The notes under the pieces were generated by a model. That model saw only the letters and a program-made list of their open reading frames with translations. It made no database searches and had not been told where the DNA came from. The translations under genes were made by a program, and so were the position numbers. Of a stretch of DNA of 64,000 bases, positions 6,001 through 27,349 are shown piece by piece. The first letter of the stretch is position 1; each line of letters starts with the position of its first letter. Origin of the DNA: Bacteroidota bacterium (GTDB lineage Bacteria > Bacteroidota > Ignavibacteria > Tepidaquicellales > Tepidaquicellaceae); NCBI GenBank assembly GCA_018266895.1, contig JAFDZQ010000043.1, positions 1-64,000 of the forward strand, in the 5' to 3' direction.

Positions 6001-7626
6001 ATTCTGAAAGCCGATGTTACTGTTAAAGAGGATCTGGAAAAGATTTTTAAAGAGATAAAGAAAAGCGGTTTTCCTTTAAAAGGTATAATTCACTCAGCCG
6101 GAGTGCTTGATGATTCTATCATAATGAATCAGACAAAGAATAAATTTGACAAAGTAATGGCTCCGAAAGTTCTCGGAGCATGGAATCTGCATGAACTTTC
6201 GAAGAAATACGAGCTCGATTTCTTTGTAATGTATTCTTCCGTAGCTTCCCTGCTTGGTTCAGCCGGACAATCAAATCATTCATCGGCAAATTCATTCCTT
6301 GATGCTCTTGCGCATTACAGAAAATCAAAGGGACTTCCTGCGCTCAGCATTAACTGGGGAGTATGGTCGGAGATAGGATCCGCAGCAGCTAAAGGGGCAG
6401 ACAAACAGGAAAAGATAGCGGGATTAAAAAACATTAAACCTGCTCAGGGAATAAAAGCCCTTGAAAAAGCACTGAATCTCAGCACTGCCCAGGCAGGAAT
6501 TTTACCGATGGACTGGAACAAATTCTCGGCAGGAAATAATAATTATTTTATTTCTGATCTGATCAAAAGAGATTTGCAGAAAGAAGGCATGCAGTTTACT
6601 GCAGCTGAATCAGGAAAAGATTTTATCTCGCAGCTGAGAGCAGCTCCTGAAGAGATGCATCAGGAACTTCTGACTGATTATTTCAGAAAAGTCATATCAG
6701 GTATTATGGGTCTGGAACCGGCTGAGCTTTTGCCTGAACAGCCGCTGAATTCAATTGGTCTGGATTCGCTTATGGCGATCGAACTTAAGAATAAAGTGAA
6801 TATTGAACTCGGAGTCGACCTGAATCTTGTCAGATACATGGAAGAGACTAATATTATTCAGCTTGCCAATGAACTTAAAGAACAGCTTTCAGGAATTCTT
6901 CATAAGAGTGAAACTTTTACCGACAAACTAAGAAATTCTCCTCCGGAAAGACACAACGAGATGCTGACAGACTATTTCAAAAATCTTATTTCCGGTATAA
7001 TGGGACTTGATCCGGATGAACTTGAACCGGAACAGCCGCTTAATACTTTCGGTCTTGATTCTCTTATGGCGATTGAACTTAAAAATAAAGTTAATATTGA
7101 ACTCGGCGTAGATCTGAATCTTGTAAGATATATGGAAGGAACTAATATTCTTCAGCTTGCCGGTGAACTCAAAGAACAGCTTTCGAATGTTCTCATTCAA
7201 AAAGAAAGCTTTGTAAACAGACTGAAGAATTCCCCGGCTGAGAAACACAGACAAATGCTTATAGATTATTTCCGGAATCTGATATCTGGAATAATGGGTC
7301 TTGAGCCGGAAGAACTTGATGAAGATCAGCCGCTTAACTCTGTCGGACTTGATTCGCTTATGGCAATTGAGCTGAAAAATAAAGTGAACCTGGAACTCGG
7401 AGTCGATCTTAATCTTGTCAGATACATGGAAGAGACAAATATTTTAAGACTTGCTGAAGAGCTTAATGAACAGCTTTCGAAAATTCTATCTGCTGATGAT
7501 CAGACAGGCAGATCATTAAATGCGAAGAAAAATATTTCGGAAGAAGACAAAGCGAGAGATCTTCTTGCAAATCTGGATAACCTGACGGAAGAGGAACTTG
7601 AACAGCTTCTTAAAGAAATGAATTAA
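1..7626 (+). CDS. FAAL-type hybrid polyketide synthase (5' partial)
   Basis: Type I modular PKS. The frame is open to base 1, where SSGKIQRRS matches the last (A10-like) motif of a fatty-acyl-AMP ligase, so a start at 61 would be an artefact and the loading domain lies off the edge. Order by nucleotide: ACP (148-370, GMDSL serine at 253); ketosynthase (436-1690; DTACSSS Cys at 922, HGTGT and NIGH histidines); acyltransferase (1981-2950, GHSAGEY serine at 2263); dehydratase (3130-3960; His at 3196, LDTAFQ Asp at 3694; the motif glycine is Asp); C-methyltransferase (4420-5160, LELGAGTG at 4630); ketoreductase (5836-6400); three ACPs (6634-7515). No enoylreductase is visible. One extension is expected: an activated fatty acid elongated by one ketide and alpha-methylated, with beta-reduction and dehydration possible. 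The C-terminus (LLANLDNLTEEELEQLLK) resembles a helical docking tail. The NRPS genes follow directly. Confidence 0.93.
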   Translation, partial: SSGKIQRRSCKSGVEEGTLEVVAEWKHGEISDKRKKESDKTGKLKFTVTKNNLKEWLVNRISEMMQIKKESIDTGEPFAVYGMDSLKAVQLSGDLETLLEKELPSTLVYDYPNINSLSEFLSRDTDVKFNIEKEKKILKTSSDNNEPIAITGIGLRFPGAKNVNEFWNNLKNGIDSVKQIPEGRWNKNSLNNTTVTFGGFADDTDKFDPVFFGISPREAVQIDPQQRFALEVAWEAIEDAGINPESLAGKDVGVFMGICTYDYARYSAGRKELFDVYTGTGTSLSIAANRLSYFFDFRGPSLAIDTACSSSLVALHTACQSIRSGQSSMALAGGVNLLLAPDWNIVFTEADMLAPDGKCKTFDADADGYVRSEGCGIVLLKKLSDAVKDGDRIYSVILGSAINQDGRSNGLTAPNGPSQVAVVKSALLNADVKAGEVSYVETHGTGTPLGDPIEVNSLKEALSSERNKDEVLWIGSVKTNIGHLEAAAGIAGVIKTSLALHNHEIPRHLNFRKLNPEILIDGTPVRVADKNIEWKSRNRIAGVSSFGFGGTNAHVILANAPEPAHNVLKSKPHNIITISAKNKNTLNQLVSDYEKFLNENNGLKSEDVCYSANRRASHNHRLAIVCSDINDLKKEISNYRNSKESFDIIYGAAKPNHSPQIAFLFPGQGAQYIGMGKELYDTHPLFRKTINRCDEILRNYLDRSLLEVLFYEKDEALNPINETMYTQPALFAVEYALAQVWMSWGVKPAIMMGHSAGEYIASCLAGVFSLEDGLKLVTERGRLMETLTKDGEMYTVFADEKTTAEAIKGYEETVSVASINGPLKTVISGNKDSLAKILPAFDKSQTEYKKITVSIASHSPLMKTMIEEFRKVCNTVKYSPARIPVVSNITGEIVTDKIANADYWCEHIMSAVRFSDSIKACVNFGCDTFIDLGPKPTSIGMGQETVMDPKLNWLPSFKKNFTIWETMLQGLGKLFVNGLSPDWINFDKDFSHKLVSLPSYPFQKQRYWIDEAKGARPESFISSAAAVPKEDKISPVVDSRLLSASENEFIFNSFISVEDITYLKDHCVFDKVVIPGSLYIDIALTAGAEIIKNNSLKLSELVFHQALILSDSGSKNLQTIFSKTEKNKYKFEIFSLSGGENRHWKLHASGNIRADKSEFRQNEDISILKKEISNKVSVSSFYNRAKNTGIEYKNNFQALKEIQTNDKSALGLIQTDVKLNDIRYTINPVTLDTAFQTALALFLKNESSRAFIPIGIDKLITSGKCPDEIFSLVRINTESEKSPKKNKSKIHKADIELLTSGGEIFAEIKGLQLKEVSREEFLSSKDELKDWFYEISWIEQSKNISADESGINPGIKNLKTASDKSFSESVKENNLIQYRKGIEELDSLSLMYIIKAFEKAGIKAEKGNVFSLKDLNLSRQHIKLAGRLTEILSEKGLIKIKGDKTEYTVSTDTSVIEKTIESIKNNYPEVKAELNLLTKCGDKLSEVIQGKTDPLQLLFPDGDLTQTTELYRDSPGFRTMNTAVKDIVKKITDGLPSRRKIEILELGAGTGSTSSFLFEMLPKDRTHYSFTDISPAFFVKAKDKFRNYDFIEYRILNIEKDVVSQEFDENGFDIVIASNVIHATKDLKITTDNILKLLAPGGVLILNEVTEKKYWIDLTFGMIEGWWRFEDKKLRSSYPLLNNDSWKSFLEQSGFESSEISAPLNKKNISLSGQSLITALKPASLKPVRPEKHIIFFADGKSVKNISKHIKSSDKGFTLAGHSSSDDFRKISESVYEADFTKKENIAKVFKELSLEHKDNISIVFMNSHSGNIKNEDLEKLSEACCLSLLNIIQSVPSAGFKSAPSLEIVTHDSQFVREDDNMKGILYSSLWGLGKVILMEHPEFKCRLTDIDSMNDIKALIEEIKSDPEERYVAFRDGRRYVSRLERSKNFLTGNDTQFRTDENGSYLITGGLSGLGILTAKFLASKGAKHLVLTGRSGISEDSKEILNEILSMDADVKILKADVTVKEDLEKIFKEIKKSGFPLKGIIHSAGVLDDSIIMNQTKNKFDKVMAPKVLGAWNLHELSKKYELDFFVMYSSVASLLGSAGQSNHSSANSFLDALAHYRKSKGLPALSINWGVWSEIGSAAAKGADKQEKIAGLKNIKPAQGIKALEKALNLSTAQAGILPMDWNKFSAGNNNYFISDLIKRDLQKEGMQFTAAESGKDFISQLRAAPEEMHQELLTDYFRKVISGIMGLEPAELLPEQPLNSIGLDSLMAIELKNKVNIELGVDLNLVRYMEETNIIQLANELKEQLSGILHKSETFTDKLRNSPPERHNEMLTDYFKNLISGIMGLDPDELEPEQPLNTFGLDSLMAIELKNKVNIELGVDLNLVRYMEGTNILQLAGELKEQLSNVLIQKESFVNRLKNSPAEKHRQMLIDYFRNLISGIMGLEPEELDEDQPLNSVGLDSLMAIELKNKVNLELGVDLNLVRYMEETNILRLAEELNEQLSKILSADDQTGRSLNAKKNISEEDKARDLLANLDNLTEEELEQLLKEMN
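6634..7515 (+). repeat. Three tandem ACP repeats of 294 bp
   Basis: Three consecutive, in-frame 98-codon units (6634-6927, 6928-7221, 7222-7515) each encode a full acyl carrier domain. The shared core is GLDSLMAIELKNK, with the phosphopantetheine serines at 6766, 7060 and 7354. The units are so alike at the protein level (GVDLNLVRYMEE in nearly all) that recent duplication or gene conversion is likely. Tandem ACPs are known from PUFA synthases and some modular PKSs, where they raise flux. Here they probably hand the ketide to the condensation domain of the next protein. Confidence 0.93.
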
Positions 7627-7670
7627 TCAAACGGAGTATTTAACTGAAAGAAGAAAATAAAATATCATCT

Positions 7671-10600
7671 TTGTCCGCAAAAGAGAAACTCTCTTTGCTG
7701 AAGAAACAGCTTCAGGAAAAAGCAAATCAGGAGAACCGTATTTTTCCGCTGTCATTCGGGCAGCAGTCATTGTTTTTTCTGTATCTGAATTCTCCCGAAA
7801 GTTTTGCTTATAATGTCGCCTTCAACATGAGGATAAAATCCTCCGCTGATATTCCTTCACTCAGGAAGTCTTTTCAGATACTTCTGAACCGCTATGAGTC
7901 ATTAAGGACGACTTACTACATTAAGGATGGAAAACCGGTTCAGGAAATTCACGGTTATCGGGAAATATCTTTTGAGGAGATCAGCGCCGGCGGATTTAAT
8001 GAACAGGAGCTCTTTGCAATTGTCAGAAAAATTTATGAGATACCTTTCGATCTTGAGAACGGACCGGTATTCAGGGTTTATCTTTTCAGAGTCAGCGAAA
8101 ATGATTTTATACTGATGATCAAAATGCATCACATCTGCAATGACGGCTGGTCAATCGGATTGATGCTTAACGATCTCAAAAAGATCTATGAATCGGAAAC
8201 CGAAGGTATAAAAGCTGATCTTCCGATGCTTGATAAACATTACACTGACTATATAAAATACCAGCAAGAGCTTGTTAATTCAGATGAAGGTGAAAAACTC
8301 TGGAAATACTGGGAAAAAGAATTAAGCGGAGAACTTCCGGTATTAAATTTACCTGCTGACAAGCCGCGTCCTGCAGTTCAGTCTTTTAAAGGAAAGACAG
8401 AATATTTTACTCTTGATGATGATCTTGTTGTCAGAATCAAAGAACTTTCTAAAAAAGAAGGCGTTACTTTATTTGTAATGCTTCAGGCTTTTTATCAGAT
8501 CTTTTTACACAGATACACCGGTCAGGATGAAATTATAGTCGGCTCTCCTACTGCCGGAAGAAACCGGACTGAATTCGAAAACATTGTCGGATATTTCATA
8601 AACCCGGTCGCTGTCAAAGGCACATTCAGTGAAAATATTTCCTTCAGGGAATTTCTTCAGCAGATAAAGAAGAAAGTGATCGGAGCAGTATCACATCAGG
8701 ATTTTCCTTTCTCAATAATTGTTGACAGACTTCTGCACAGGCGTGATCCTTCAAGGACTCCCGTGTTTCAGACATTTTTCGGATTACAGAAGGTTCAGAA
8801 AAATGATGACATTCAGGAAATGCTCGTTCCGGGAAACAAAGGGAATCAGGTCAGCTGGGGTAAACTTTTAATCGAATCATTCGAACTTCCTCAGCAGGAA
8901 GGTCAGTTTGATCTTACTGTTGAATTCGTTGAAGGACAGAAAATTTTTGCCGGCGCTTTTAAATACAATACTGATCTTTTCGAAGAAGAAAATGTAAAAC
9001 GGATGGTTTCCAGTTTTAAAAACCTTCTGAATGATATTGTTTCATCTCCGGGAAAGAAAATATCCGAATTTTCACTCATCACAGAAGAAGAAAAAGAACT
9101 GATCACAGTAAAATGGAATGATACTGATTTTACTTTTGATAATTTTGACTGTGTGCATAAATTAATTTCCGTACAGTCAAAAAAATCACCCGATTCAATT
9201 GCCGTTACTTACGGAAACGAAAGTATTTCTTATAAGGAACTGGAAAGAAGATCAAACCGTCTTGCACGATTTCTGATTAATAACGGAGTTACAGGAAATT
9301 CACTTACCGGACTGTGTATCGAGAGATCTATTGAAATGGTAGTAGGCATACTGGGAATACTTAAAGCAGGCAGCGCTTATGTTCCGATAGATCCTTCATA
9401 CCCTTCTGGAAGAGTTGAATTCATGATTAAGGATTCCGGCGCTCAGTATATTATTACACAAAAAGATCTTATAGATGATCTTCCTGAATGTGATTGTATT
9501 TATTTAGAGATTGACGGCAATGATGAAATTTTAAACGAATCTCCTGAAGACATAGAATCAAATTCCGGTCTTGATGATACAGCTTATGTGATTTATACAT
9601 CCGGCTCTACGGGTCTTCCGAAAGGCGTGATGATAAGTCACCGTTCACTTGCCAATCACATGCTATGGATGATCAGAGAATTCAATACTGATGAATCAGA
9701 TTCAGTCCTTCAGAAAACTCCGTTCAGCTTTGATGCATCAGTGTGGGAATTTTACCTTCCACTGATGACCGGCGGAAGATTAGTAATGGCTAAGCCGGAC
9801 GGTCATATGGATACTGCATATCTCGTCAGTACTATATTAAAGGAAAAAGTAACAATTCTTCAGCTTGTGCCTTCACTTCTGAGGATGCTGCTTGATGAGA
9901 GAGGAATTGAAGAGTGTACCTCTCTGAAAAAAGTTTTCAGCGGAGGCGAAGCCCTGACTAAAGATCTGAAGGATAAATTGTTTGATAAACTGAATGTTGA
10001 TTTCTATAATCTTTACGGACCAACTGAAGCAACTATAGATGCAACTTTCTGTAAATGCAGAAAGGATTCATCCGAAAATTATATTTCAATCGGCAAGCCG
10101 GTCAGCAATACACGGATTTATATACTTGACAAATATCTTAATCCTTTGCCTCAGGGAATTCCCGGTGAAATTTATATAGGCGGTGTTGATGTTGCTAAAG
10201 GTTATCTTAATAATCCTGAACTTACAGATTCTAAATTCATTCCGGATATTTTCAGCAAAATACCAGGAGCTAAATTATATAAAACAGGTGACGCTGCTAA
10301 ATTCGGACCTGACGGTAATATCGTATTTCTCGGACGGGTTGACAATCAGGTAAAGCTCAGAGGTTTTAGAATCGAACCCGGTGAGATAGAATCAAAGCTT
10401 GATAAGTATCCGGCTGTCAGAGAATCAGCGGTAATTGTCAGGGAAGATAAACCTGGAATTCAGAGACTTGCGGCATATATTGTATGCAGGGAAAATAATA
10501 TTATTGATTCAGCAGATCTTAAAAATTTTCTGCGTGAATCCCTTCCCGAATATATGATACCTGCGGTATTTGTCTTTCTTGAGGAATTACCTCTGACACC

Positions 10601-12332
10601 GAACGGAAAGTTAGACAGGCTTTCTTTGCCTGTTCCTGAAATTTCCAAAACAGAATCTGAATCTTACATTGCTCCGAGACTTCCTGTCGAAGAAATTCTT
10701 GCAGGTATCTGGGAAAAGGTGCTGGGCAGAGAAAAGATAGGCGTACATGATAATTTTTTTGAACTCGGAGGCGATTCTATAATCAGCATTCAGATATTGT
10801 CTCTTGCAAATCAGGCAGGAATAAAAATCACTCCTAAGCAGATATTTCAGTTTCAGACAATTGCAGAACTTTCAAATGTAGCCGTCTTCTCTGCACCTGC
10901 CTTTAATCAGCAGGATGAAGTCTCCGGTACCGTAAACCTTACACCGGTTCAGAAATGGTTTTTTGATCAGAATATACCCGACCCTCATTTTTACAATCAT
11001 TCCGTCCTGCTTAAAGTACCTGCAGGGCTGAATGAAATATTTCTTGAAGCTTCTGCAAATGAACTTGTAAGGCATCACGATGCATTGAGATTAAGATTTG
11101 ATTTCTCCGGAAATCAATGGCATCAGATCAATGCTGAAACGGAAAACGGAAAAATTTTCAGCACATTTGGAATTGATTTTTCTGACAAAGACAAAGGCAA
11201 AAATATTTTAAAAGAGAATATTGACAATTTACAGAAAAGCCTGAACTTATCACAAGGTCCTCTTATCAGGATAAGACTCTACAAAACAGGACTTACTGAA
11301 GACAGGCTTCTGATAATTATACACCACCTCTGCGTTGACGGTATTTCCTGGAGAATTATTCTTGAAGATCTTTACAAGTGTTACTCTGATTTAAATGTGT
11401 ATAATGAAATCAAGCTCCCGCCCAAAACGGCTTCTTTCAGAGACTGGAGCAGTAAACTTTCAGAATACGCGGATTCACAAAAGATCGCTTCGGAAAAGGA
11501 TTACTGGATATCCGTTTCAGATTCAAAAGTAAAAGGCATACCTGAAGACTTTTTATCCGGAACAAATACGGTCGAATCATCTGACGAAGAAGTAATATTT
11601 TTTGATGAACAGATCACTGAAGCATTGTTACATGAAATTCCGAAAGTTTATAACACAAAAATAAATGATATTCTTCTCACTGCTCTGCTGATCGCATATA
11701 CAAACTGGTCAGATGAAACCCGTCTTGTCATAAATCTTGAAGGACACGGGAGAGAAGATATTTTTGACAATACTGATATTTCCCGGACTGTCGGATGGTT
11801 CACTTCGATATATCCGGTATTATTAGATTCAGGAGGCAGTAAAGACACAGGTGATATCATTAAAAAAATAAAAGAAGACCTGAGGAAGATACCTGAAAAC
11901 GGAATCGGATACGGAATTCTCCGTTACCTTTCTTCCGATAAAAAGTTTTCAGCTCAGCTTGACAATGCTGAAAAAGCCGGAATCATATTCAATTATCTCG
12001 GACAGATGAATGACACAGTTTCAAAAGATTCGTACTGGAAGACAGGAAGCAGTTCGATCATACTCAACAGAAATGTTTCCGGTTTAAGAACTCATGCGAT
12101 TGAACTGAACAGCATCACATCAAACGGCAGGCTCCGGATGAATTTCATTTACAGCAGAAATATTCATAAAAAGGAAACAATGGAAAAGTTTGCTGAATTT
12201 TACCGGTCAGCTTTGTTATCTGTAATTGATCATTGCAGAAATCCTGAAGCCGGAGGATATACTGTATCTGATTTCAGCGAATCAGGTCTTGATCAGCAGG
12301 AGCTTGATAATTTACTGGCTAACTTAAATTAA
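7671..12332 (+). CDS. NRPS module C-A-T-E, predicted D-Gln
   Basis: Nonribosomal peptide synthetase, about 1553 residues. Condensation domain (about 24-460) with HHICNDG at 153-159, expected to couple the polyketide acyl chain to the first amino acid. Adenylation domain (about 505-990) with YTSGSTGLPKG, YGPTE and NGKLDR. Aligning to GrsA by eye gives specificity residues D-A-W-Q-F-G-L-I-D-K, which I recall as a glutamine code. Thiolation domain with GGDS serine at codon 1036. Epimerization domain (about 1090-1540) with HHLCVDGISWR, EGHGRE and RTVGWFTSIYPV, so the residue should be delivered as the D form. The TTG at 7671 has no convincing ribosome site. A CTG at 7644, in frame and 7 nt after GGAG (7633-7636), is a plausible true start that adds 9 residues. 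The next gene begins 3 nt after the stop. Confidence 0.93.
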   Translation: MSAKEKLSLLKKQLQEKANQENRIFPLSFGQQSLFFLYLNSPESFAYNVAFNMRIKSSADIPSLRKSFQILLNRYESLRTTYYIKDGKPVQEIHGYREISFEEISAGGFNEQELFAIVRKIYEIPFDLENGPVFRVYLFRVSENDFILMIKMHHICNDGWSIGLMLNDLKKIYESETEGIKADLPMLDKHYTDYIKYQQELVNSDEGEKLWKYWEKELSGELPVLNLPADKPRPAVQSFKGKTEYFTLDDDLVVRIKELSKKEGVTLFVMLQAFYQIFLHRYTGQDEIIVGSPTAGRNRTEFENIVGYFINPVAVKGTFSENISFREFLQQIKKKVIGAVSHQDFPFSIIVDRLLHRRDPSRTPVFQTFFGLQKVQKNDDIQEMLVPGNKGNQVSWGKLLIESFELPQQEGQFDLTVEFVEGQKIFAGAFKYNTDLFEEENVKRMVSSFKNLLNDIVSSPGKKISEFSLITEEEKELITVKWNDTDFTFDNFDCVHKLISVQSKKSPDSIAVTYGNESISYKELERRSNRLARFLINNGVTGNSLTGLCIERSIEMVVGILGILKAGSAYVPIDPSYPSGRVEFMIKDSGAQYIITQKDLIDDLPECDCIYLEIDGNDEILNESPEDIESNSGLDDTAYVIYTSGSTGLPKGVMISHRSLANHMLWMIREFNTDESDSVLQKTPFSFDASVWEFYLPLMTGGRLVMAKPDGHMDTAYLVSTILKEKVTILQLVPSLLRMLLDERGIEECTSLKKVFSGGEALTKDLKDKLFDKLNVDFYNLYGPTEATIDATFCKCRKDSSENYISIGKPVSNTRIYILDKYLNPLPQGIPGEIYIGGVDVAKGYLNNPELTDSKFIPDIFSKIPGAKLYKTGDAAKFGPDGNIVFLGRVDNQVKLRGFRIEPGEIESKLDKYPAVRESAVIVREDKPGIQRLAAYIVCRENNIIDSADLKNFLRESLPEYMIPAVFVFLEELPLTPNGKLDRLSLPVPEISKTESESYIAPRLPVEEILAGIWEKVLGREKIGVHDNFFELGGDSIISIQILSLANQAGIKITPKQIFQFQTIAELSNVAVFSAPAFNQQDEVSGTVNLTPVQKWFFDQNIPDPHFYNHSVLLKVPAGLNEIFLEASANELVRHHDALRLRFDFSGNQWHQINAETENGKIFSTFGIDFSDKDKGKNILKENIDNLQKSLNLSQGPLIRIRLYKTGLTEDRLLIIIHHLCVDGISWRIILEDLYKCYSDLNVYNEIKLPPKTASFRDWSSKLSEYADSQKIASEKDYWISVSDSKVKGIPEDFLSGTNTVESSDEEVIFFDEQITEALLHEIPKVYNTKINDILLTALLIAYTNWSDETRLVINLEGHGREDIFDNTDISRTVGWFTSIYPVLLDSGGSKDTGDIIKKIKEDLRKIPENGIGYGILRYLSSDKKFSAQLDNAEKAGIIFNYLGQMNDTVSKDSYWKTGSSSIILNRNVSGLRTHAIELNSITSNGRLRMNFIYSRNIHKKETMEKFAEFYRSALLSVIDHCRNPEAGGYTVSDFSESGLDQQELDNLLANLN

Positions 12333-12335
12333 AAA

Positions 12336-15300
12336 ATGCAGCAGAATAAAAAAACAAATATTGAAGACATTTATGAACTTTCCTCAATGCAGCAGGGAAT
12401 GCTTTTCCATACGCTGTATACCGAAGGTTCTGATGCATACATAGAACAGTTTTGCTATGATCTCTCGGGTGAGATTGATATTGAATATTTCAGAAAAGCA
12501 TGGCAGGAAACAGTTAACAGACATTCTGTTCTAAGGACTTCTTTTCAATGGAAGGGAATTTCCAAACCTGTTCAGCTTGTCAGCAGGGAAACTGAGTTAC
12601 CCTGGGAATTTCTTGACTGGAGCGGTCTGACACAGTCCGAAAAAGATACTGAGTATAATAATTTTATCAGAAAAGACAGGAACAAGGGATTTTCAATGGA
12701 ACAGACTCCTCTGATGAGATGCACTCTTATAAAATATGAAAAGGAGTTTTATAAATTCGTATGGACTTTTCATCATATTTTAATGGACGGCTGGAGTTAC
12801 CCGATCATTCAGAAAGAAGTCTTTACATTCTATGAAGCTTTTAAGAACGGCACTGATATTACTCTTCCGAAGCCGCTTCCTTATAAACATTTTATTCAAT
12901 GGGCAAATCAGCAGGACAGACAGGCGGCTGAAATTTTCTGGAAAAAAGAATTAAAAGGATTTTCGGCGGCAACTCCTCTCAGGGATTTTTCAGAACATTC
13001 TAAGTCTTCTGAAAAAGTTTCTGCCGGAACGGAAGAAGCAGGAATAACAATTTCCGCAGACATAACTTCAGGTTTATCCTCCTTTGCAAAAAAAAATCAG
13101 CTGACATTAAATACAATCATTCAGGGCGTTTGGTCAGTAATATTAAGCACTTACAGAGGAGAAAGCGATGTGCTTTTCGGCGGTGTCATATCGGGAAGAA
13201 ATCCGGCACTCAGGGGAATTGAGTCAATGGTCGGTCTGTTTATTAACACTCTGCCCGTAAGAGTGAACGTCGATCCGGTCAGAAATCTCGTTTCATGGTT
13301 TAAGGAAATTCAGTCAGAACATCTGGAAAGAGATCAGTACTCCTATACTCCCCTCGTTGACATTCAGGAATGGAGCGGCATTCAGAGAGGGACTCAGCTG
13401 TTTGAAAATATAATCGTTTTTGAAAATTATCCTCTTGATAAATCACTTGAAAACGGAATTGCAGGGATAAAGATCGGTAATTTAAAAGCTGTTGAAAGGA
13501 CGAACTTTCCGCTTGTAATTCTTATTGCTCCGGGTGACGGACTTACAATTAAGATTGTTTACGAGACGGATAAATTCGAAAGATCTTTTATTGATCAGAT
13601 ACTGAAAAATTTTGAAACCCTTCTGAAGGGAATAAGCAGTGATACTGTTTCGAATATTTCAGATCTTTCATTGCTGACTGAAGACGAAAAGAAAATGATC
13701 CTTCTTGACTGGAATGACACAAAGAAAGATTTCCCTTCAGAAAAATGCGTTCATAATTTATTCGAAGAGCAGGCAAATAAACATCCGGAAAATATTGCTC
13801 TGGAATTCGGGGATAAAAAGATTACATACAGAGAACTGAACGAAAGAGCTAATCAGGTGGCTAACCGCCTTATCAGAATGGGAGCAGGTCCGGATGTGGT
13901 AGTCGGAATCAGCGTTGAAAGATCTGTCGAAATGATTATTGCTTTGTTGGGTATTTTAAAATCAGGTTCTGCTTATCTGCCTCTTGATTCTACTTATCCC
14001 GCTGAAAGAATATCCTATATGATCAGTGATACGGGAATTCCCGTTTTGATCACAAGCAGAAAAATTCATTCAAAACTTCCTGAGACTTCTGCAAAAGTAC
14101 TTCTTATTGATGAGAACCGTGATGAAATTGAAAAAGAAATTAAATCTGATCCTGTTACAAAGGTAACTTCCTCTGACCTTGCTTATGTGATTTATACATC
14201 CGGCTCTACAGGAAAGCCAAAAGGCGTACTTATGATGCATAAAGCATTGACAAATCTCCTTTACTGGCAGCTTAACGGACAGAAGTTTGAAAAAAACCTC
14301 AGAGTCCTTCAATTCACTACTCTCAGTTTTGATGTATCGTTTCAGGAAATTTTTTCAACTTTTTATTCCGGCGGAACCCTTGTAGTGATCACTGAAGAAG
14401 AAAGACAGGATCTGTCAGAAGTTTTAAAAATTGTGAGGAATAAAAAAATTCAGAGAATGTTTCTTCCGTTTATTGCTTTGCAGGAAATAGCTGAATCTTA
14501 TAATTCTTCGAAAGAAAGATCGCTTGATCTGAAAGAAGTTATCACTGCCGGTGAGCAGTTGCAGACAACCCCTTCAATTGTAAATTTTTTCAAAAGTATA
14601 AAGAATTTTACTTTTTCAAATCATTACGGTCCGTCCGAAGCTCATGTGGTAACAAGTTATGAACTCGGGAATGATCCTGATAAATGGGTAAAGCATACTC
14701 CGATTGGCAAGCCTGTTTTTAATACTCAGATGTTTGTATTGAATTCAGCTCTTAAGCCGGTTCCGAACGGAGTTACCGGTGATCTTTACATCGGAGGAAT
14801 TCAGCTTGTAAGAGGATATAATAAAAGTCCATCGCTTACTGCAGAAAAGTTTATTGATAATCCTTTTAAAAATCTAAATGATAATTTCAGCGAAAAGCTG
14901 TACAAGACAGGAGATATTGCAAGATATTTATCAGACGGGAATCTTGAGTATCTTGGAAGAGATGATAATCAGATTAAGTTAAGAGGTTTCAGGATTGAAC
15001 TCGGAGAAATCGAATCAGAGCTTTCAGGATATCCCGGATTTAAAAATGTTGTTGTGATAGCAAGAGAGTTCAGTCCCGGAGACAAGAGACTAATTGCATA
15101 TATTGTTAACTCTAATAATGCTCAGCCGTTGTCATCGGACATAAGGAGTTATTTAAAGGCTAAAATACCGGATTTTATGATACCTTCTGAATATATTTTT
15201 CTGAAGGAAATTCCGCTTACTCCTTCAGGCAAAACGGATAAAAAATCCCTGCCTGAACCGGAGTACATCAGAGCCAATGAAAGCGCTGATTATGAAGAAC

Positions 15301-16403
15301 CTGCGGACGAGCTTGAGCTTCAGCTGGTAAAAATCTGGGAAAAAGTGATCGGAGTAAAACCTGTGGGAGTTAATGATAATTTTTTTGAAATAGGCGGTCA
15401 TTCGCTTCTGGCTTTAAGAGTTTTCGGATACATAGAAAAGCTGACGGGAAAAAAGTTAGCTCTTTCAACACTTTTCAATTATCCGACAGTACGGCAGATA
15501 GCTGATGTATTAAAGAACGAAGGATGGACAAGACCATGGAAATCGCTTGTTGCAGTCAAACCGGGAGGTTCGAAAATTCCGTTTTTCTGTGTACCTCCTG
15601 CAGCAGGAACAGCGTTGCATTTTCAGGCAATGGTAAAATATATTTCTAAAGATCAGCCTTTTTATGTGCTTGAATCTGTAGGACTTGACGGAAAGGAAGA
15701 ACCTCATAATGACCTTGTCGTAATGGCGGCACATTATGTAAACGAGATCAGAACACTTCAGCCCGAAGGACCATATCTGCTCGGAGGAAGATGTTTCGGC
15801 GGAAGAGTAGTTTTTGAAATGGCTCAGCAGCTTGAAAAGCTCGGACAGAAAGTAGCGCTTCTGGCAATATTCGATACCTGGCCTCCGTTTATTGCTCCGC
15901 CTCCAAGCTATGTTCCTCCTAAAAGAGACGCTAAGCATTTTATAAAAAGCAGTCTTCAGCATTTGAAAACAGGAGATCTGTGGAATGTGGTTGTCAATTA
16001 CAGTTCAAACAGATTCAGTAAGTTAAAATGGAAAATTCAGAACAAACTTGAATATGCTTTCAGCAGTAAACGTAAAAAATTATTTAAAAGAATAATGCTT
16101 ATGCATTTCAATGCACAGGACAGATATGTCGCTTCAAAGTATCCTGGTAAGATAACTCTCATAGAATGCGCAACATTTAAAAAGGAATACAGGGAGGGCT
16201 GGAAAAATCTTGCCGGAGGAGGATTTGAATTCTATGTCGTACCGGATACAAATCACAAGACAATTGTGAGAGAACCCAAGCTGAAAGACTTTTCAGAAAA
16301 ACTGAATTTTGTTCTTGAGAAGACTCATAAAGAATTAGAAAAAGGGACAGTAAGAAACGGAAAATCCGAATCAGCTCTTATTGATGAAAAAGTTAATGTA
16401 TAA
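12336..16403 (+). CDS. Terminal NRPS module C-A-T-TE, predicted Pro
   Basis: Nonribosomal peptide synthetase, 1355 residues, beginning 3 nt after the previous stop. Condensation domain (about 10-445) with LSSMQQGMLFH and HHILMDGWS; the DCL subtype is expected because the upstream module ends in an epimerase. Adenylation domain (about 470-965) with YTSGSTGKPKG, YGPSE and SGKTDK. Specificity residues read by eye are D-V-Q-F-I-A-H-V-V-K, a proline-type code. Thiolation domain with IGGHS serine at codon 1023. Thioesterase (about 1075-1325) whose nucleophile motif reads GGRCFGG, so Cys (codon 1153, bases 15792-15794) replaces Ser. A downstream Asp (FDTWPP) and His (NHKTIVREP, base 16254) complete the triad. 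It should release the chain by hydrolysis or cyclization. About 20 charged residues follow the TE. Confidence 0.93.
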   Translation: MQQNKKTNIEDIYELSSMQQGMLFHTLYTEGSDAYIEQFCYDLSGEIDIEYFRKAWQETVNRHSVLRTSFQWKGISKPVQLVSRETELPWEFLDWSGLTQSEKDTEYNNFIRKDRNKGFSMEQTPLMRCTLIKYEKEFYKFVWTFHHILMDGWSYPIIQKEVFTFYEAFKNGTDITLPKPLPYKHFIQWANQQDRQAAEIFWKKELKGFSAATPLRDFSEHSKSSEKVSAGTEEAGITISADITSGLSSFAKKNQLTLNTIIQGVWSVILSTYRGESDVLFGGVISGRNPALRGIESMVGLFINTLPVRVNVDPVRNLVSWFKEIQSEHLERDQYSYTPLVDIQEWSGIQRGTQLFENIIVFENYPLDKSLENGIAGIKIGNLKAVERTNFPLVILIAPGDGLTIKIVYETDKFERSFIDQILKNFETLLKGISSDTVSNISDLSLLTEDEKKMILLDWNDTKKDFPSEKCVHNLFEEQANKHPENIALEFGDKKITYRELNERANQVANRLIRMGAGPDVVVGISVERSVEMIIALLGILKSGSAYLPLDSTYPAERISYMISDTGIPVLITSRKIHSKLPETSAKVLLIDENRDEIEKEIKSDPVTKVTSSDLAYVIYTSGSTGKPKGVLMMHKALTNLLYWQLNGQKFEKNLRVLQFTTLSFDVSFQEIFSTFYSGGTLVVITEEERQDLSEVLKIVRNKKIQRMFLPFIALQEIAESYNSSKERSLDLKEVITAGEQLQTTPSIVNFFKSIKNFTFSNHYGPSEAHVVTSYELGNDPDKWVKHTPIGKPVFNTQMFVLNSALKPVPNGVTGDLYIGGIQLVRGYNKSPSLTAEKFIDNPFKNLNDNFSEKLYKTGDIARYLSDGNLEYLGRDDNQIKLRGFRIELGEIESELSGYPGFKNVVVIAREFSPGDKRLIAYIVNSNNAQPLSSDIRSYLKAKIPDFMIPSEYIFLKEIPLTPSGKTDKKSLPEPEYIRANESADYEEPADELELQLVKIWEKVIGVKPVGVNDNFFEIGGHSLLALRVFGYIEKLTGKKLALSTLFNYPTVRQIADVLKNEGWTRPWKSLVAVKPGGSKIPFFCVPPAAGTALHFQAMVKYISKDQPFYVLESVGLDGKEEPHNDLVVMAAHYVNEIRTLQPEGPYLLGGRCFGGRVVFEMAQQLEKLGQKVALLAIFDTWPPFIAPPPSYVPPKRDAKHFIKSSLQHLKTGDLWNVVVNYSSNRFSKLKWKIQNKLEYAFSSKRKKLFKRIMLMHFNAQDRYVASKYPGKITLIECATFKKEYREGWKNLAGGGFEFYVVPDTNHKTIVREPKLKDFSEKLNFVLEKTHKELEKGTVRNGKSESALIDEKVNV

Positions 16404-16411
16404 CTGGTTCT

Positions 16412-17098
16412 TTGAAAATAAATAAAAATGAAATACATATTTACAGGACAAGGACTGATCTGACGTTAAATGAGTTATCCGTTTATGAGAAATACTTATC
16501 CGCAGATGAAAGAATCAAAGCTGGCAGATATAAATTTGATCATCTGAAAAACAATTATACTGCATGCAGGGGATTTCTCAGAGAAATCATCAGCGGGTAT
16601 ACGGGAATGAGACCCGGTGAGATTGAATTTTCATATTCGGAATTCGGGAAACCATTTCTGAACGGAAGCAATATCAGATTCAATGTTTCACATTCAGGAA
16701 AGGCGGGAATAATAGCTGTAAATTCGGATGATGAACTGGGAATTGATATTGAGTTGATAAGAGAAGTTCCGGATTTGCTCACTTTATCCCGGAGATTCTT
16801 TTCAAAAACAGAAATTGCCGAACTGAATAAATCTGACAGCAGTAAAATTACAAATTCTTTTTTTTACTGCTGGACGAGGAAGGAGGCGTTTATAAAAGCT
16901 TTAGGAACAGGTCTGCAGCATCCATTGAACAGCTTTTCCGTGACTACAGGTGAAAATAGTGAACCGCGGATTATTGAGACGGATAATGATGTAAATGAAG
17001 CGGGTAAGTGGAAAATATATGACTTAAAAGCTTTCAGAGATTATATTTCATCTCTTGCCATAAGGGCATTGAATAAAAATATTGTATTTAAAAATTAA
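16412..17098 (+). CDS. Sfp-type 4'-phosphopantetheinyl transferase
   Basis: Transfers phosphopantetheine from CoA to the carrier-domain serines, here most likely of the adjacent PKS and NRPS proteins. It has 228 residues, typical for Sfp enzymes, with NVSHSG, the metal-binding GIDIE, and the WTRKEAFIKALG signature. The start is TTG at 16412, only 8 nt after the NRPS stop; the nearby ATG at 16428 is out of frame. Its position as the last enzyme of the run supports a single transcript with the assembly line. The cluster therefore brings its own activating enzyme. Confidence 0.94.
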   Translation: MKINKNEIHIYRTRTDLTLNELSVYEKYLSADERIKAGRYKFDHLKNNYTACRGFLREIISGYTGMRPGEIEFSYSEFGKPFLNGSNIRFNVSHSGKAGIIAVNSDDELGIDIELIREVPDLLTLSRRFFSKTEIAELNKSDSSKITNSFFYCWTRKEAFIKALGTGLQHPLNSFSVTTGENSEPRIIETDNDVNEAGKWKIYDLKAFRDYISSLAIRALNKNIVFKN

Positions 17099-21910: not shown

Positions 21911-22414
21911 TTAATTTTTTAAAGCGATATTTTCTGTTTTAATTCTTATTGTTAGCATTACTGCATTCAATACTGTGAAAATTACTGCCGTGTAATATAG
22001 ATTGAATATCAACGGTATTGCAATGAGTTCGAGCGAAACAATTATATAATTAGGATGCTTTATATATTTGTATAAACCCGTCCTGATCAGTCCGGAACCC
22101 CTGATCCTGAATATTTTTGTGTTCCAGTACTTTCCCAAAGACCTGATCACGGATATTCTTCCGAACTGCAGTAAAATAAATAATACCAAAAACAAATAAT
22201 TAATAATATTTAAATCATAATGACCTGTCTGAATAGTATATTCTGCTATCAGTGATATAAAAAAAAGAATATGCATAAGAACAATAAACTTATAATGTTC
22301 TTTGCCAAATTCTTCAGCACCGTTGTCCAGCAGCCATTTTTCGTTTCTGCGGGATATTGTGAGTTCGGTTAGTCTCTGAATTATAATAAAAACTATCAGG
22401 AAATAAAAAAACAA
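21911..22414 (-). CDS. ICMT-family membrane methyltransferase
   Basis: Isoprenylcysteine carboxyl methyltransferase-family integral membrane protein, 167 residues with about four or five hydrophobic helices. Key features are the RNEKW segment after helix 1, YWNTKIFRIRGSGLIRTGLYKYIKHPNY near the middle (the RHPxY-type SAM/substrate motif) and a conserved N-terminal arginine pair. In bacteria such proteins are often encoded next to type III PKSs (for example BpsB beside BpsA in Bacillus) and O-methylate alkylpyrones. The type III PKS gene ends 28 nt upstream, so that role is likely here. Confidence 0.83.
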   Translation of the reverse strand: MFFYFLIVFIIIQRLTELTISRRNEKWLLDNGAEEFGKEHYKFIVLMHILFFISLIAEYTIQTGHYDLNIINYLFLVLFILLQFGRISVIRSLGKYWNTKIFRIRGSGLIRTGLYKYIKHPNYIIVSLELIAIPLIFNLYYTAVIFTVLNAVMLTIRIKTENIALKN

Positions 22415-22442
22415 TTTATCGTAAATAATTTTAATGAATTTG

Positions 22443-23528
22443 TTAATTCTTCATATCAAGCAGCAATAGTTCACTTGAGAATCCCGGTCCCAGTGAAATC
22501 ATAAGTCCCGGACCGGCTTCATAACCTTTTCTAATGAACTCATTTAATACGTAAAGCACTGAAGCACTCGACATATTGCCGTAATTTTTCAGAATCTTTT
22601 TGGATTTATTTAACATCTCCGGTTTAATGCCAAAAGCTGATACATAGGCTTCAATTATTTTCTTTCCACCGGGATGAACTATAAAATTACGGATGTCCGT
22701 AATTCTCAGGGAATTCATTTCCAGAAAATCCATGACTTCATCTCTTACATTATTGTTAACAATTGCAGGAATATCTTTTGAGAATATGACTTTAAACCCC
22801 GTTTCCAGCACTTCCCATCCCATCACATCCAGTGAATCATAATAAAGCCTGCTTCTGTAGTTTTTAATCCGGATGCCTTTCATTATTTCTGTATTGGCTT
22901 CGTCACCGGTCATCATTACTGCGGCAATACCGTCAGAAAATAATCCGGTGGCAATTAAATTACTTTTTGAATTATCCTCTTTCAGAAATGTAAGAGAGCA
23001 AAGTTCCGCTGCAACTACAAGGACTTTTGCATTCGGATTGGCAGTTGCTATAACTGAAGCTTTGGCAAGACCTGACACTCCTCCCGCACAGCCGAGACCC
23101 CAGACCGGAGTACGGTTGATATTCGGATTTAATTTCATTTTATTGATTATCAAAGCATCAATGCTCGGAGTAGAAATCCCTGTGGATGATATAAAAATGA
23201 AATCCGTGATCTCAGATCTTTTTATTCCCGCTTCATTTATACATTTTTCAATTGCTTCTTCTGCATATTTAAGACAGATGTCAACATAAAGTTCATTTCT
23301 TTCTTTGAATGTTCTTTGTTCTGAAAAATAAATTATGGGAACACACAGATTCCTGTATTCAATCATTGTATTATCAAAAGATGCGAGTATTCTGTCTATA
23401 TCTTCAAAATCATTCCCGAACGTTTTTCTGGAAAATTCCTTCAAATCCTTTTGTTTGGCTTTATATGGAAAGTCTGTAACTGATACTGATTTTATTGCTG
23501 ACAATTTACCTGAATTTAATTTTATCAA
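22443..23528 (-). CDS. Type III polyketide synthase (chalcone/stilbene synthase family)
   Basis: Condenses an acyl-CoA starter with malonyl-CoA and cyclizes the chain; bacterial members commonly make alkylpyrones or alkylresorcinols. It has 361 residues, slightly short but complete. Catalytic residues: Cys in WGLGCAGGVSGLA (about 160), His in FIVHPGGKKI (about 290), Asn in NYGNMSSASVL (about 322). The start is TTG at 23528; a nearby upstream ATG runs into a stop, and no ribosome site is seen. Followed directly by the methyltransferase gene, it forms a two-gene cassette for a methylated pyrone- or resorcinol-like lipid. A MITE copy lies about 240 bp upstream. Confidence 0.9.
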   Translation of the reverse strand: MIKLNSGKLSAIKSVSVTDFPYKAKQKDLKEFSRKTFGNDFEDIDRILASFDNTMIEYRNLCVPIIYFSEQRTFKERNELYVDICLKYAEEAIEKCINEAGIKRSEITDFIFISSTGISTPSIDALIINKMKLNPNINRTPVWGLGCAGGVSGLAKASVIATANPNAKVLVVAAELCSLTFLKEDNSKSNLIATGLFSDGIAAVMMTGDEANTEIMKGIRIKNYRSRLYYDSLDVMGWEVLETGFKVIFSKDIPAIVNNNVRDEVMDFLEMNSLRITDIRNFIVHPGGKKIIEAYVSAFGIKPEMLNKSKKILKNYGNMSSASVLYVLNEFIRKGYEAGPGLMISLGPGFSSELLLLDMKN

Positions 23529-24032: not shown

Positions 24033-24164
24033 TAAGCGTTAAACTGAAAAACTTTATAATTTCAATTTACTTGTTGATTTTTTATCTTCTGCTCAGAAAA
24101 CAGATTTCGGATAGATTAATCATTTATATTTTGATTTATAAAACTAATTTAGTATTTCTTTAAA

Positions 24165-24250
24165 GGTGATGGAGTTCACCAAAATTGTCCGGTTGTCCGA
24201 TAATCACAGACTGATGACTCCTGTTAATTATTTAATTGGCAGGAGTTATT
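24165..24250 (+). promoter_or_regulatory. Candidate fluoride (crcB-motif) riboswitch with terminator
   Basis: The first stem GGTGA/TCACC (24165-24169 with 24176-24180) has loop TGGAGT. After an intervening stem region comes CTGATG followed by ACTCC (24217-24221), which pairs with GGAGT of the loop to form the pseudoknot. GATGGxGTTC and CTGATG before the pseudoknot strand match my memory of the fluoride aptamer. ACTCCTG (24217-24223) can alternatively pair with CAGGAGT (24240-24246) before a T-rich run, making a terminator. The two pairings exclude each other, so ligand binding should turn transcription on. The MFS gene starts about 178 nt downstream. Confidence 0.7.
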
Positions 24251-24427
24251 TATTTTATAAACATTTTTAATTTTAATGTTAATTCTAAATTCATGATTAT
24301 GTGTCTTAAATAATTATCTCACTTTACAAATTACTTATCCGGGTTTTAGAAAATAGGAAATTCGGATGATTGAATTCTCAAACTATATTAATCACAATTT
24401 TTACTCAAACTTAAACAAAAGATTATT

Positions 24428-25621
24428 TTGAAATACATTTCCCGAACTGTCTGGATTCTTTCCATTGTCAGCATGGTTGCTGATGTTGCAAGTGAAATGC
24501 TGTATCCGATTATTCCTGTATATTTGAAAAATATCGGATTTTCTGTATTCCTGATCGGTTTACTCGAAGGAGTAGCTGAAGCCACTGCCGGTCTCAGTAA
24601 AGGTTACTTCGGAAGCTGGTCAGACAGGATCGGAAGAAGAATGCCGTTTGTAAGATTAGGGTATCTGCTAAGCGCTTTCTCCAAACCTATGATGGCAATT
24701 ATAATCAATCCGTTATGGATATTTTTCGCACGTACAACTGACCGTATCGGTAAAGGACTTCGTACAGCACCGCGTGATGCGCTGCTGTCAGCCGAAGCAA
24801 CTCCCGAAACCAAAGCCCGCGTTTTTAGTTTTCACCGGGGTTGGGACACTTTAGGCGCTGTAGTCGGTCCGGTCTTTGCATTGTTGTTTTTGTATTTTTA
24901 TCCGGGCGAAATTTCAACACTCTTCTATATTGCTTTCATCCCCGGAATCATTGCCGTGCTTGTCACTTTTTTTATTAAGGAAAAAACATTTATTCCCAAA
25001 GAGAAAAAAAGCACTCCGGGATTTTTTACATTTCTGAAATACTGGAAAGTCGCCCCTGCCGGATATCGAAAGCTTTTGATTCCGTTAATATTGTTTGCAT
25101 TGTTTAACAGTTCGGATATGCTTCTGCTTCTTAAAATTAAAGAATCTACCGGAAGTGAAAACACAACACTGATGGTTTATATTTTTTACAATATTGTATA
25201 TGCATTAGCTTCTCTGCCTTTAGGAATTCTGGCAGACAGGTTCAATATGAAAAGCGTTTACTTATTCGGGCTGTTACTTTTCGCCGCAACATATTTTGGA
25301 ATGGCAAAAGCCGAAGCAGGTCTTGCATTTTACATCATATTCGGAATTTACGGAATTTATATGGCTGCAACGGAAGGTATTTCAAAAGCATGGATCACAA
25401 ATATGGTAAAGAAGGAAGAAACCGGAACAGCAGTTGGTTTGTACGTTGCTTTGCAGAGTATCTCGTTAATGATTGCAAGCGCATTCGCAGGTTTAATCTG
25501 GAATTTCTACGGAGCTTCCGTAACATTTTTTCTGACTGCATGCATATGCGTGATAGTTATCTTATTCATATTGTTTGTTACTCCAAAACCTGTAATAGCT
25601 TCTGAAAAGCCGGCAGTATAA
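24428..25621 (+). CDS. MFS transporter downstream of riboswitch
   Basis: Major facilitator, 397 residues, about 11-12 transmembrane helices. Motif A is seen as GSWSDRIGRRMPF in the loop between helices 2 and 3, and the conserved family segment DRIGKGLRTAPRDAL between helices 4 and 5. A long central loop (about 188-215) separates the halves. The substrate cannot be read from sequence; efflux is likely from the motif pattern. If the upstream element is a fluoride riboswitch, export of fluoride or a fluoride-linked stress role follows by inference. The start is TTG at 24428; no ribosome site is clear. No crcB or CLC-F gene is in the window. Confidence 0.88.
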   Translation: MKYISRTVWILSIVSMVADVASEMLYPIIPVYLKNIGFSVFLIGLLEGVAEATAGLSKGYFGSWSDRIGRRMPFVRLGYLLSAFSKPMMAIIINPLWIFFARTTDRIGKGLRTAPRDALLSAEATPETKARVFSFHRGWDTLGAVVGPVFALLFLYFYPGEISTLFYIAFIPGIIAVLVTFFIKEKTFIPKEKKSTPGFFTFLKYWKVAPAGYRKLLIPLILFALFNSSDMLLLLKIKESTGSENTTLMVYIFYNIVYALASLPLGILADRFNMKSVYLFGLLLFAATYFGMAKAEAGLAFYIIFGIYGIYMAATEGISKAWITNMVKKEETGTAVGLYVALQSISLMIASAFAGLIWNFYGASVTFFLTACICVIVILFILFVTPKPVIASEKPAV

Positions 25622-25740
25622 GATATGTCAAATTTTCAAAGTTTATACCTGAAATATTTTAAAGAACTACCGGGGAATTTTCAGGAATGACAATCATTAT
25701 TTTTTATTTGTTATGAACGAATCTGTATTAGTTTCAGAAT

Positions 25741-25818
25741 GTGACGGAGTTTAACTTAACATTCCTGAGTAATGGGACTATTCACTCCTGCTAAAGATTT
25801 TCTTGGCAGGAGTTTTTC
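25741..25818 (+). promoter_or_regulatory. Degenerate riboswitch-like element with terminator
   Basis: GTGACGGAGTTTAAC (25741-25755) followed by GACTATTCACTCCTG (25776-25790) parallels the fluoride-type element upstream (GTGATGGAGTTCACC and GACTGATGACTCCTG). GGAGT can pair with ACTCC, but the first stem is weak. A strong terminator is clear: ACTCCTGC (25784-25791) with GCAGGAGT (25806-25813), then TTTTT. It lies 120 nt after the MFS stop and about 170 nt before the amine oxidase, in a 366-bp gene-free stretch. The terminator is secure; ligand sensing is uncertain. Confidence 0.45.
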
Positions 25819-25987
25819 ATATAAATTTTCCTTCTTTGATTTTTTCAAAATCTGATGTGAATTTTCCGCAGCTGTATATGAAAAAAACGGATAAATAAAA
25901 TTCAGCTCTACATGATTTCAGCTTAATGAGGTTTGTATTTAATAATTTAACTCAATTACCTATTTTGAGTGAAATTAATTCTACAAA

Positions 25988-27349
25988 ATGACTACAAGAA
26001 GAGAATTCATTAAACAGTCTTCACTAATTGCAGCCGGAGCTGTATTAGCTTCCGGTACTACCGGATTTAATTTTCTTAAAAAACCATCAGTTATCGTACT
26101 CGGCGCAGGATTATCCGGACTTGCAGCGGCTGATTTTCTTTCAGCAAACAATGTGGATGTGACTGTACTGGAAGCAAGGGAAAGGATCGGAGGAAGAGTT
26201 TTTTCCCATAAGATAGACGATGAAGAGAATATTGTGATAGAGCTCGGAGCTGAATGGATCGGAGGTTCTCATTCCAGGTTACTGCAGCTTTGCAGTGAAT
26301 TTAATCTTGAACTCCTGAATAATCAGTTCAATGACAGTCTGATTTACGACAAGGTTTATTATAAACCCGATGACTGGGATTTCTCAGAAGAATGGCGGAT
26401 GAAGTTTAAAAAAATTATCGGTGATTATAAGACATTTTCAGAAAAAGAAAAAATTCAGCTTGATAAAATGGACTGGTGGAGATTTCTTATGAATCATGAC
26501 ATTCCGGCAAAAGATCTCGATATAAGGGAATACGCTGACAGCACTGATTTCGGCGAATCTATCAGATTCGTATCTGCTTATGCAGCGCTTGCCGAATACG
26601 CGGAATCAAATTCAACAAACGAAATGGATTATAAAGTATCCGGAGGCAATCATAAAATCGCTGAATCTCTCGCCTCCAGATTAGGCAATGAGAAAATAAA
26701 ACTCAGCCATAAAGTCGTTTCGGTTGTTCAAGGTACTAATATAACCGTTAACTGCGAAAACGGTGAAAGGTTTGTATGTGACAAACTTATCTGCGCATTG
26801 CCTACATTTTCCTTAAGCAAGATAAAATGGAATCCTTCTCTTCCTGCTGAAAAAATAAATGCCGTCAATGAACTTCAGTATGCAAGAATAAATAAGTCAG
26901 CGACCCTGTTCAGGGAAAAATTCTGGAAAGAAGACGCCTTCAGTATTCTCACAGATTCTTTTTCACATTATTTTTATCACGCAACCAAATATCAGAATCC
27001 CAGAAAAGGAGTACTGATCTCTTATGCAGTCGGTGATAAAGCAGATATTATATCCAGACTGAATAAAGAAGACAGAGAAAAATTAGTTGCAGATTCTCTG
27101 AAGATACCGTTCGGAGACGTGAGCGGTATGATAGAAAATAACGTTAACTATTACTGGGGACTTGATAAATATTCAATGGGTGCCTATGCCCTTTACGGCA
27201 GCGGACAGTGGTTCAGCGTTATGCCGGTGCTAAAGGAAAAATTCAATAACATTTATTTTTCCGGAGAGCACGTTGCAGACTGGCAGGGATTTATGGAAGG
27301 TGCTATTGTATCAGGAGAGGAAGCTGCGCAGGAATTGCTTGGTTCATGA
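25988..27349 (+). CDS. Tat-exported flavin amine oxidoreductase
   Basis: FAD-dependent amine oxidase family, 453 residues. The N-terminus TTRREFIKQSS followed by a hydrophobic stretch ending near residue 25 is a twin-arginine signal, so the enzyme should be periplasmic. FAD-binding motifs: VLGAGLSGLAAADFL (about 35-50) with the EARERIGGRV second motif, and a C-terminal FAD contact region YFSGEHVADWQGFMEGAIVSG. The substrate amine is unknown. It stands alone between the riboswitch-like element and lpxB; the 60 bp before lpxB contain no terminator I can see. Confidence 0.88.
   Translation: MTTRREFIKQSSLIAAGAVLASGTTGFNFLKKPSVIVLGAGLSGLAAADFLSANNVDVTVLEARERIGGRVFSHKIDDEENIVIELGAEWIGGSHSRLLQLCSEFNLELLNNQFNDSLIYDKVYYKPDDWDFSEEWRMKFKKIIGDYKTFSEKEKIQLDKMDWWRFLMNHDIPAKDLDIREYADSTDFGESIRFVSAYAALAEYAESNSTNEMDYKVSGGNHKIAESLASRLGNEKIKLSHKVVSVVQGTNITVNCENGERFVCDKLICALPTFSLSKIKWNPSLPAEKINAVNELQYARINKSATLFREKFWKEDAFSILTDSFSHYFYHATKYQNPRKGVLISYAVGDKADIISRLNKEDREKLVADSLKIPFGDVSGMIENNVNYYWGLDKYSMGAYALYGSGQWFSVMPVLKEKFNNIYFSGEHVADWQGFMEGAIVSGEEAAQELLGS

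Follow-up and report, generated by a model that had tools for sequence, protein, structure and literature searches.

What does a fluoride riboswitch control when the gene behind it encodes neither of the known fluoride exporters? This question is raised by the window studied here, i.e. the whole 64,000-nt stretch of DNA that was analysed. A preliminary description had recognized a fluoride aptamer ahead of a gene for a major facilitator superfamily (MFS) transporter, and had put this MFS family forward as a new fluoride exporter or tolerance factor. The locus comprises the following elements.

24156–24230, forward strand: fluoride riboswitch aptamer RF01734 (cmscan: E 2.2e-8 for the whole 64 kb, with 42.4 bits where the gathering score is 34)
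24165–24180, forward strand: P1 hairpin GGUGA/UCACC with GGAGU (24171–24175) in the loop (sequence, fold and P1 covariation across 23 aptamers)
24187–24211, forward strand: P2 region, closing pairs GUC/GAC and inner hairpin CGG-UUGU-CCG (sequence by eye, place of P2 from alignments, pairing predicted)
24213–24221, forward strand: GAUG-ACUCC, forming the 3' core, the pseudoknot strand (partner GGAGU 24171–24175) and the 5' arm of the terminator (covariation, 23 sequences)
24213–24250, forward strand: intrinsic terminator hairpin serving as expression platform, with a U-rich tail that runs to about 24258 (fold and shuffles)
24428–25621, forward strand: MFS transporter, 397 aa, TTG start, DHA1-like fold (PF07690, E 1.1e-43; orthologue alignment; AlphaFold2)
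25725–25825, forward strand: decayed duplicate of riboswitch and terminator, between the MFS gene and an amine-oxidase gene at 25988–27349 (alignment to 24151–24261)

An intact fluoride riboswitch with an overlapping terminator

The Rfam search proposed along with the preliminary description bore out the aptamer: RF01734 aligned over its full length (model positions 1–64) with a score above the gathering score. A second covariance model (R1), derived from 23 aptamers of the phylum including that of the window, gave 51.2 bits. In the 3.4-Mb, 92% complete assembly, this was the sole fluoride riboswitch identified. The layout is present letter by letter as described, with P1 arms GGTGA (24165–24169) and TCACC (24176–24180), GGAGT between them, and CTGATG followed by ACTCC at 24217–24221. 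Also present are the core segments AUG (24169–24171) and GAUG (24213–24216), which we take from the crystal structure of the fluoride aptamer to be those that bind the Mg-fluoride cluster. Across the 23 phylum aptamers, the pseudoknot is paired in 100% of cells, with three of its pairs changed on both sides; such changes were found in 8 of 12 aptamer pairs overall, and pseudoknot and stems are thus backed by covariation. One deviation lies ahead of P2, where the window carries AAUUG and the RF01734 consensus AACCG. The AACCG form is common among aptamers, but this position is variable, and ACUG and CCGG forms occur too. Judged by its whole-family score, the window aptamer clears the RF01734 threshold comfortably despite this AACC to AAUU change, which could shift affinity. 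Altogether, the riboswitch belongs to a known class, has an intact design and represents the ordinary part of the locus.

The terminator consists of 17 pairs (−20.1 kcal/mol, z −7.4), and none of 200 shuffled sequences was equally stable; the U-tract behind it, TATTTTATAA, is imperfect and interrupted. Because ACTCC falls within the 5' arm of this hairpin, pseudoknot and terminator are mutually exclusive, as had been claimed. The same overlapping layout was found in G180, a genome of the same family as that of the window. According to the mechanism that we propose, a transcriptional fluoride-ON riboswitch would govern a single MFS gene. When fluoride is absent, the leader would form the terminator at 24213–24250 and transcription would end ahead of the MFS gene. 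Mg2+-bound fluoride, the presumed ligand, would instead lock the aptamer through the GGAGU/ACUCC pseudoknot, so that ACUCC would no longer be available to the terminator and transcription would proceed into the MFS gene.

A second, degenerate element follows the MFS gene. The duplicate at 25725–25825 aligned to 24151–24261 with a score of 35, which none of 2000 shuffled sequences reached. Its aptamer core looks decayed, and its terminator (25784–25813) alone still appears functional. This hairpin was rejected as a second fluoride riboswitch, as it matched neither Rfam nor the phylum aptamer model.

The gene behind the riboswitch encodes a DHA1-like transporter

The first gene downstream of the riboswitch is an MFS_1 gene, and its Pfam match (PF07690) agrees with the preliminary description that it is neither Fluc/CrcB (PF02537) nor CLC-F (PF00654). 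The TTG start at 24428 is in line with the N-termini of aligned orthologues. An AlphaFold2 model of the protein (mean pLDDT 91) lies nearest to the structures of VMAT1/2, YajR and NorA. VMAT, YajR and NorA are proton-coupled exporters. In the family alignment D19, E47 and D230 are invariant, with conserved acidic residues sitting in membrane helices, and TM5 carries DTxGAxxGP, a motif of the antiporter type. From this fold and these motifs we infer proton-coupled export. No NCBIfam transporter family scored above its cut-off (best 25 of 28 families). The top match was a phosphoglycerate transporter, and a PgtP-like identity was dropped since the score of 67 bits lies far under the cut-off of 408.

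The genome also holds an ordinary crcB gene, located on a separate contig beside DUF190 and without a riboswitch. A profile search of the genome found no CLC gene (PF00654; the CLC-F signatures sought were GREGT/V and GNNLI or GMGLI). Therefore, the MFS gene is the only one here that lies directly behind a fluoride riboswitch. Elsewhere in the window, ORFs of 2521, 1553 and 1355 aa followed by one of 228 aa (61–17098) form a putative non-ribosomal peptide synthetase cluster. On the reverse strand, 21911–23528 encodes a type III polyketide synthase-like protein with chalcone/stilbene synthase domains, adjoining a putative isoprenylcysteine methyltransferase-like gene.

Relatives of the transporter recur in fluoride loci

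In a first survey of 297 genomes of the phylum, the riboswitch was often located upstream of crcB, CLC-F-sized long transporters, enolase and other genes. Within the first flanks, the window alone had an MFS gene of this family; longer reads revealed others. For example, the riboswitch operon of G180 opens with a dynamin-like GTPase and two small proteins; enolase, a Na/H exchanger, UspA and an orthologue of the window MFS come after them. A genome search found no crcB in G180, and its single CLC carries GREGP, which is chloride-type and lacks the CLC-F signature. Candidate stand-ins for the known exporters there are, consequently, the MFS protein or the Na/H exchanger. G180 shares its genus with G318 and G320; all three contain fluoride riboswitches without crcB or CLC-F, and the latter two are without any CLC. 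In G318 a riboswitch stands directly ahead of a Na/H exchanger gene, another candidate for fluoride tolerance in that genome.

Further arrangements vary in gene content. In G052, the riboswitch is followed by enolase, a dynamin-like GTPase, CLC-F (GREGT, GNNLI), DUF190 and MFS, and in an Odoribacter MAG (L125) by crcB, DUF190, a MazEF-like pair and MFS. An MFS gene of a diverged branch begins about 40 nt past the riboswitch in G495, followed by a small protein, an H+-pyrophosphatase and enolase. G492 shows the order riboswitch, crcB, DUF190 and second riboswitch, with PAP2 and MFS farther downstream, and the clusters of G483 and G156 contain even more diverged MFS proteins. The crcB and MFS genes overlap in G192. 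In L097, crcB-DUF190 precedes MFS, with a small toxin-antitoxin-like gene pair on the opposite strand in between. Such pairs between crcB-DUF190 and MFS thus occur in two unrelated genomes (L125:9408-9991, L097:1001-1643).

Two other features of the phylum's riboswitch clusters were observed. A dynamin-like GTPase repeatedly occupies the first or second place in the gene order, often beside small uncharacterised proteins (L078:7735-9492, L179:5949-7673, L185:2045-3745, L202, L203, L205-L208; assigned by PF00350 in L078, L179 and G156 and by BLAST matches elsewhere). Moreover, some fluoride islands are large and hold three to four riboswitches apiece (L206, L207, L208 and L199, in G397, G379 and G495); they carry crcB or DUF190, the dynamin-like GTPase and small proteins; by eye, those of G397 and G379 include an extra run of genes with NADH-dehydrogenase-like membrane subunits.

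The scan of genomes for the same pairing, suggested earlier, gave a divided result. An MFS gene of this family lies within 10 kb downstream of a fluoride riboswitch on the same strand in 5/41 genomes holding both, where 0.11 would be expected, counting 10-kb neighbourhoods and not proven transcripts. The corresponding P value is about 1e-7, and 5e-6 once the window is excluded; it is approximate because the test assumes uniform positions on genomes that share ancestry. In contrast, flanks of 1.5 kb around the MFS gene contained no riboswitch at any of 29 relatives' loci, including those of same-family siblings, which speaks against a role confined to fluoride. Among the 80 closest orthologues from elsewhere, only two have a crcB link, one of them with a riboswitch as well, and most relatives show no fluoride link. 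Plasmid-borne relatives have neighbourhoods that are mostly unrelated to fluoride, and a search of viral contigs found no relatives. Nevertheless, the pairing of riboswitch and MFS gene is unlikely to be an accident, and the candidacy of the MFS protein as a tolerance factor is strengthened because its relatives recur in riboswitch operons and beside crcB above chance.

A tree built from 114 MFS proteins places the fluoride-linked members in scattered positions, with 7 label changes against 9.8 for shuffled labels; it was made by a quick method without bootstrap, contains long branches and gives gains indistinguishable from losses. At least 5 of the 7 changes are forced by well-supported branches, and a single fluoride-specific clade was rejected on this tree. 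The simplest reading of these sequences may be a broad MFS family that was drawn into fluoride operons several times.

Function of the transporter and alternative explanations

We consider it rather likely, with a probability of about 0.7, that the locus is a functional fluoride-ON riboswitch driving an MFS protein for fluoride tolerance. The protein would be an efflux transporter of DHA1-like type, probably coupled to protons, that was recruited to the fluoride regulon and limits fluoride damage. Readings on its cargo are weighed separately, and the probabilities do not sum to one because the cargo rivals fit the regulatory part of this explanation.

Fluoride itself would be the likeliest single cargo, an assignment that we make tentatively. 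Going further, the family might represent a third, so far overlooked kind of fluoride exporter in bacteria: an MFS antiporter exchanging fluoride and protons that was repeatedly recruited into riboswitch operons and replaces CrcB/CLC-F in genomes such as G180; we regard this as doubtful. Of the preliminary description, the aptamer, the terminator and the MFS target are supported, whereas the "new fluoride exporter" stays a candidate: family members mostly lack a fluoride context, the linked members are scattered, some lie near metal efflux genes, and the genome of the window has an ordinary crcB. The scattered fluoride-linked members, the mostly non-fluoride relatives and the several near metal efflux genes lead us to read the MFS protein best as a recruited efflux protein.

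One possible explanation, nearly as likely as fluoride cargo, is metal-ion homeostasis: without transporting fluoride, the MFS protein may tune divalent metal ions, by export or uptake, when these are disturbed by fluoride complexing, and be induced for that reason. On a Hymenobacter plasmid, a family member is located directly behind a heavy-metal P-type ATPase, and in several Bacteroidota relatives adjoin putative P-type ATPases or CzcA/CusB-type RND metal pumps, as judged from sequence starts. According to a review, divalent-cation transporters are over-represented in fluoride operons (PMC11139923). However, at the window locus and in G495 the MFS gene has no adjoining metal genes.

It is improbable that the riboswitch is a relic, its original crcB or CLC-F gene having been lost, with the MFS gene downstream by chance and perhaps under a promoter of its own between terminator and start codon. 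The 198 nt that separate the aptamer end from the MFS start codon would leave room for this reading, which is also in keeping with the decayed copy behind the gene and with family members that have no riboswitch at that place. A relic does not, however, account for an aptamer core, pseudoknot and terminator that are all intact, nor for relatives in four other fluoride-riboswitch clusters of the co-location survey, the count behind the P of 5e-6. A weaker rival than metal-ion homeostasis, in our view quite unlikely, is a role in balancing phosphate or phospho-metabolites, e.g. the release of phosphoglycerate accumulated under fluoride-blocked enolase. PAP2 lies immediately ahead of MFS in G492 and a DedA/PAP2 gene ahead of a relative on a Massilia plasmid, several of the same operons carry enolase or pyrophosphatase, and the best NCBIfam match points the same way. 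That match falls far under its cut-off, however, and among the structural matches SLC37A4, an organophosphate transporter, comes well after VMAT, YajR and NorA.

Comparison with known fluoride systems

In the layout of the aptamer, the letters of its core, the pseudoknot and the overlap with a terminator, the window element matches the fluoride (crcB) riboswitch RF01734. Besides AAUUG in place of AACCG, it differs in its target, an MFS gene and not crcB, CLC-F, enolase or an antiporter gene. The 2010 paper on the crcB motif named mutS, K+ and Cl− transport and formate hydrogen lyase (PMC2864571), and a 2024 review named Fluc, CLC-F, Na/H antiporters, pyrophosphatase, enolase and others, with only two protein families, Fluc/CrcB and CLC-F, as bacterial fluoride exporters (PMC11139923). 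No MFS gene was described as a fluoride-riboswitch target in the literature searched, which comprised sources other than Baker et al. 2012 with its list of riboswitch-associated genes. The fluoride operon of Enterobacter cloacae FRM, ppaC-uspA-eno-gpmA-crcB-orf5249, resembles that of G180 in that several genes, those for enolase and UspA among them, stand under a fluoride riboswitch, but it has no MFS gene (PMC5533749).

With DHA1-type H+ antiporters (VMAT, YajR, NorA, LmrP), the window MFS shares the fold, the antiporter-type motif in TM5 and acidic residues in the membrane. Its identity to them is about 15–19%, a DRxGKGxRTxxRDA segment is distinctive of it, and this comparison turned up no family member with known cargo. 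To the exporters Fluc/CrcB and CLC-F it is alike in its position under a fluoride riboswitch, and its relatives share operons with them; its fold is unrelated (PF07690 versus PF02537 and PF00654). Going by the literature searched, the novelty of the locus is the MFS gene in a fluoride regulon, not the riboswitch. An MFS family that recurs in fluoride-riboswitch operons, even in the absence of either known exporter, represents a testable candidate for a third route to tolerance next to Fluc/CrcB and CLC-F, and the pairing offers a handle on ion management in cells under fluoride stress.
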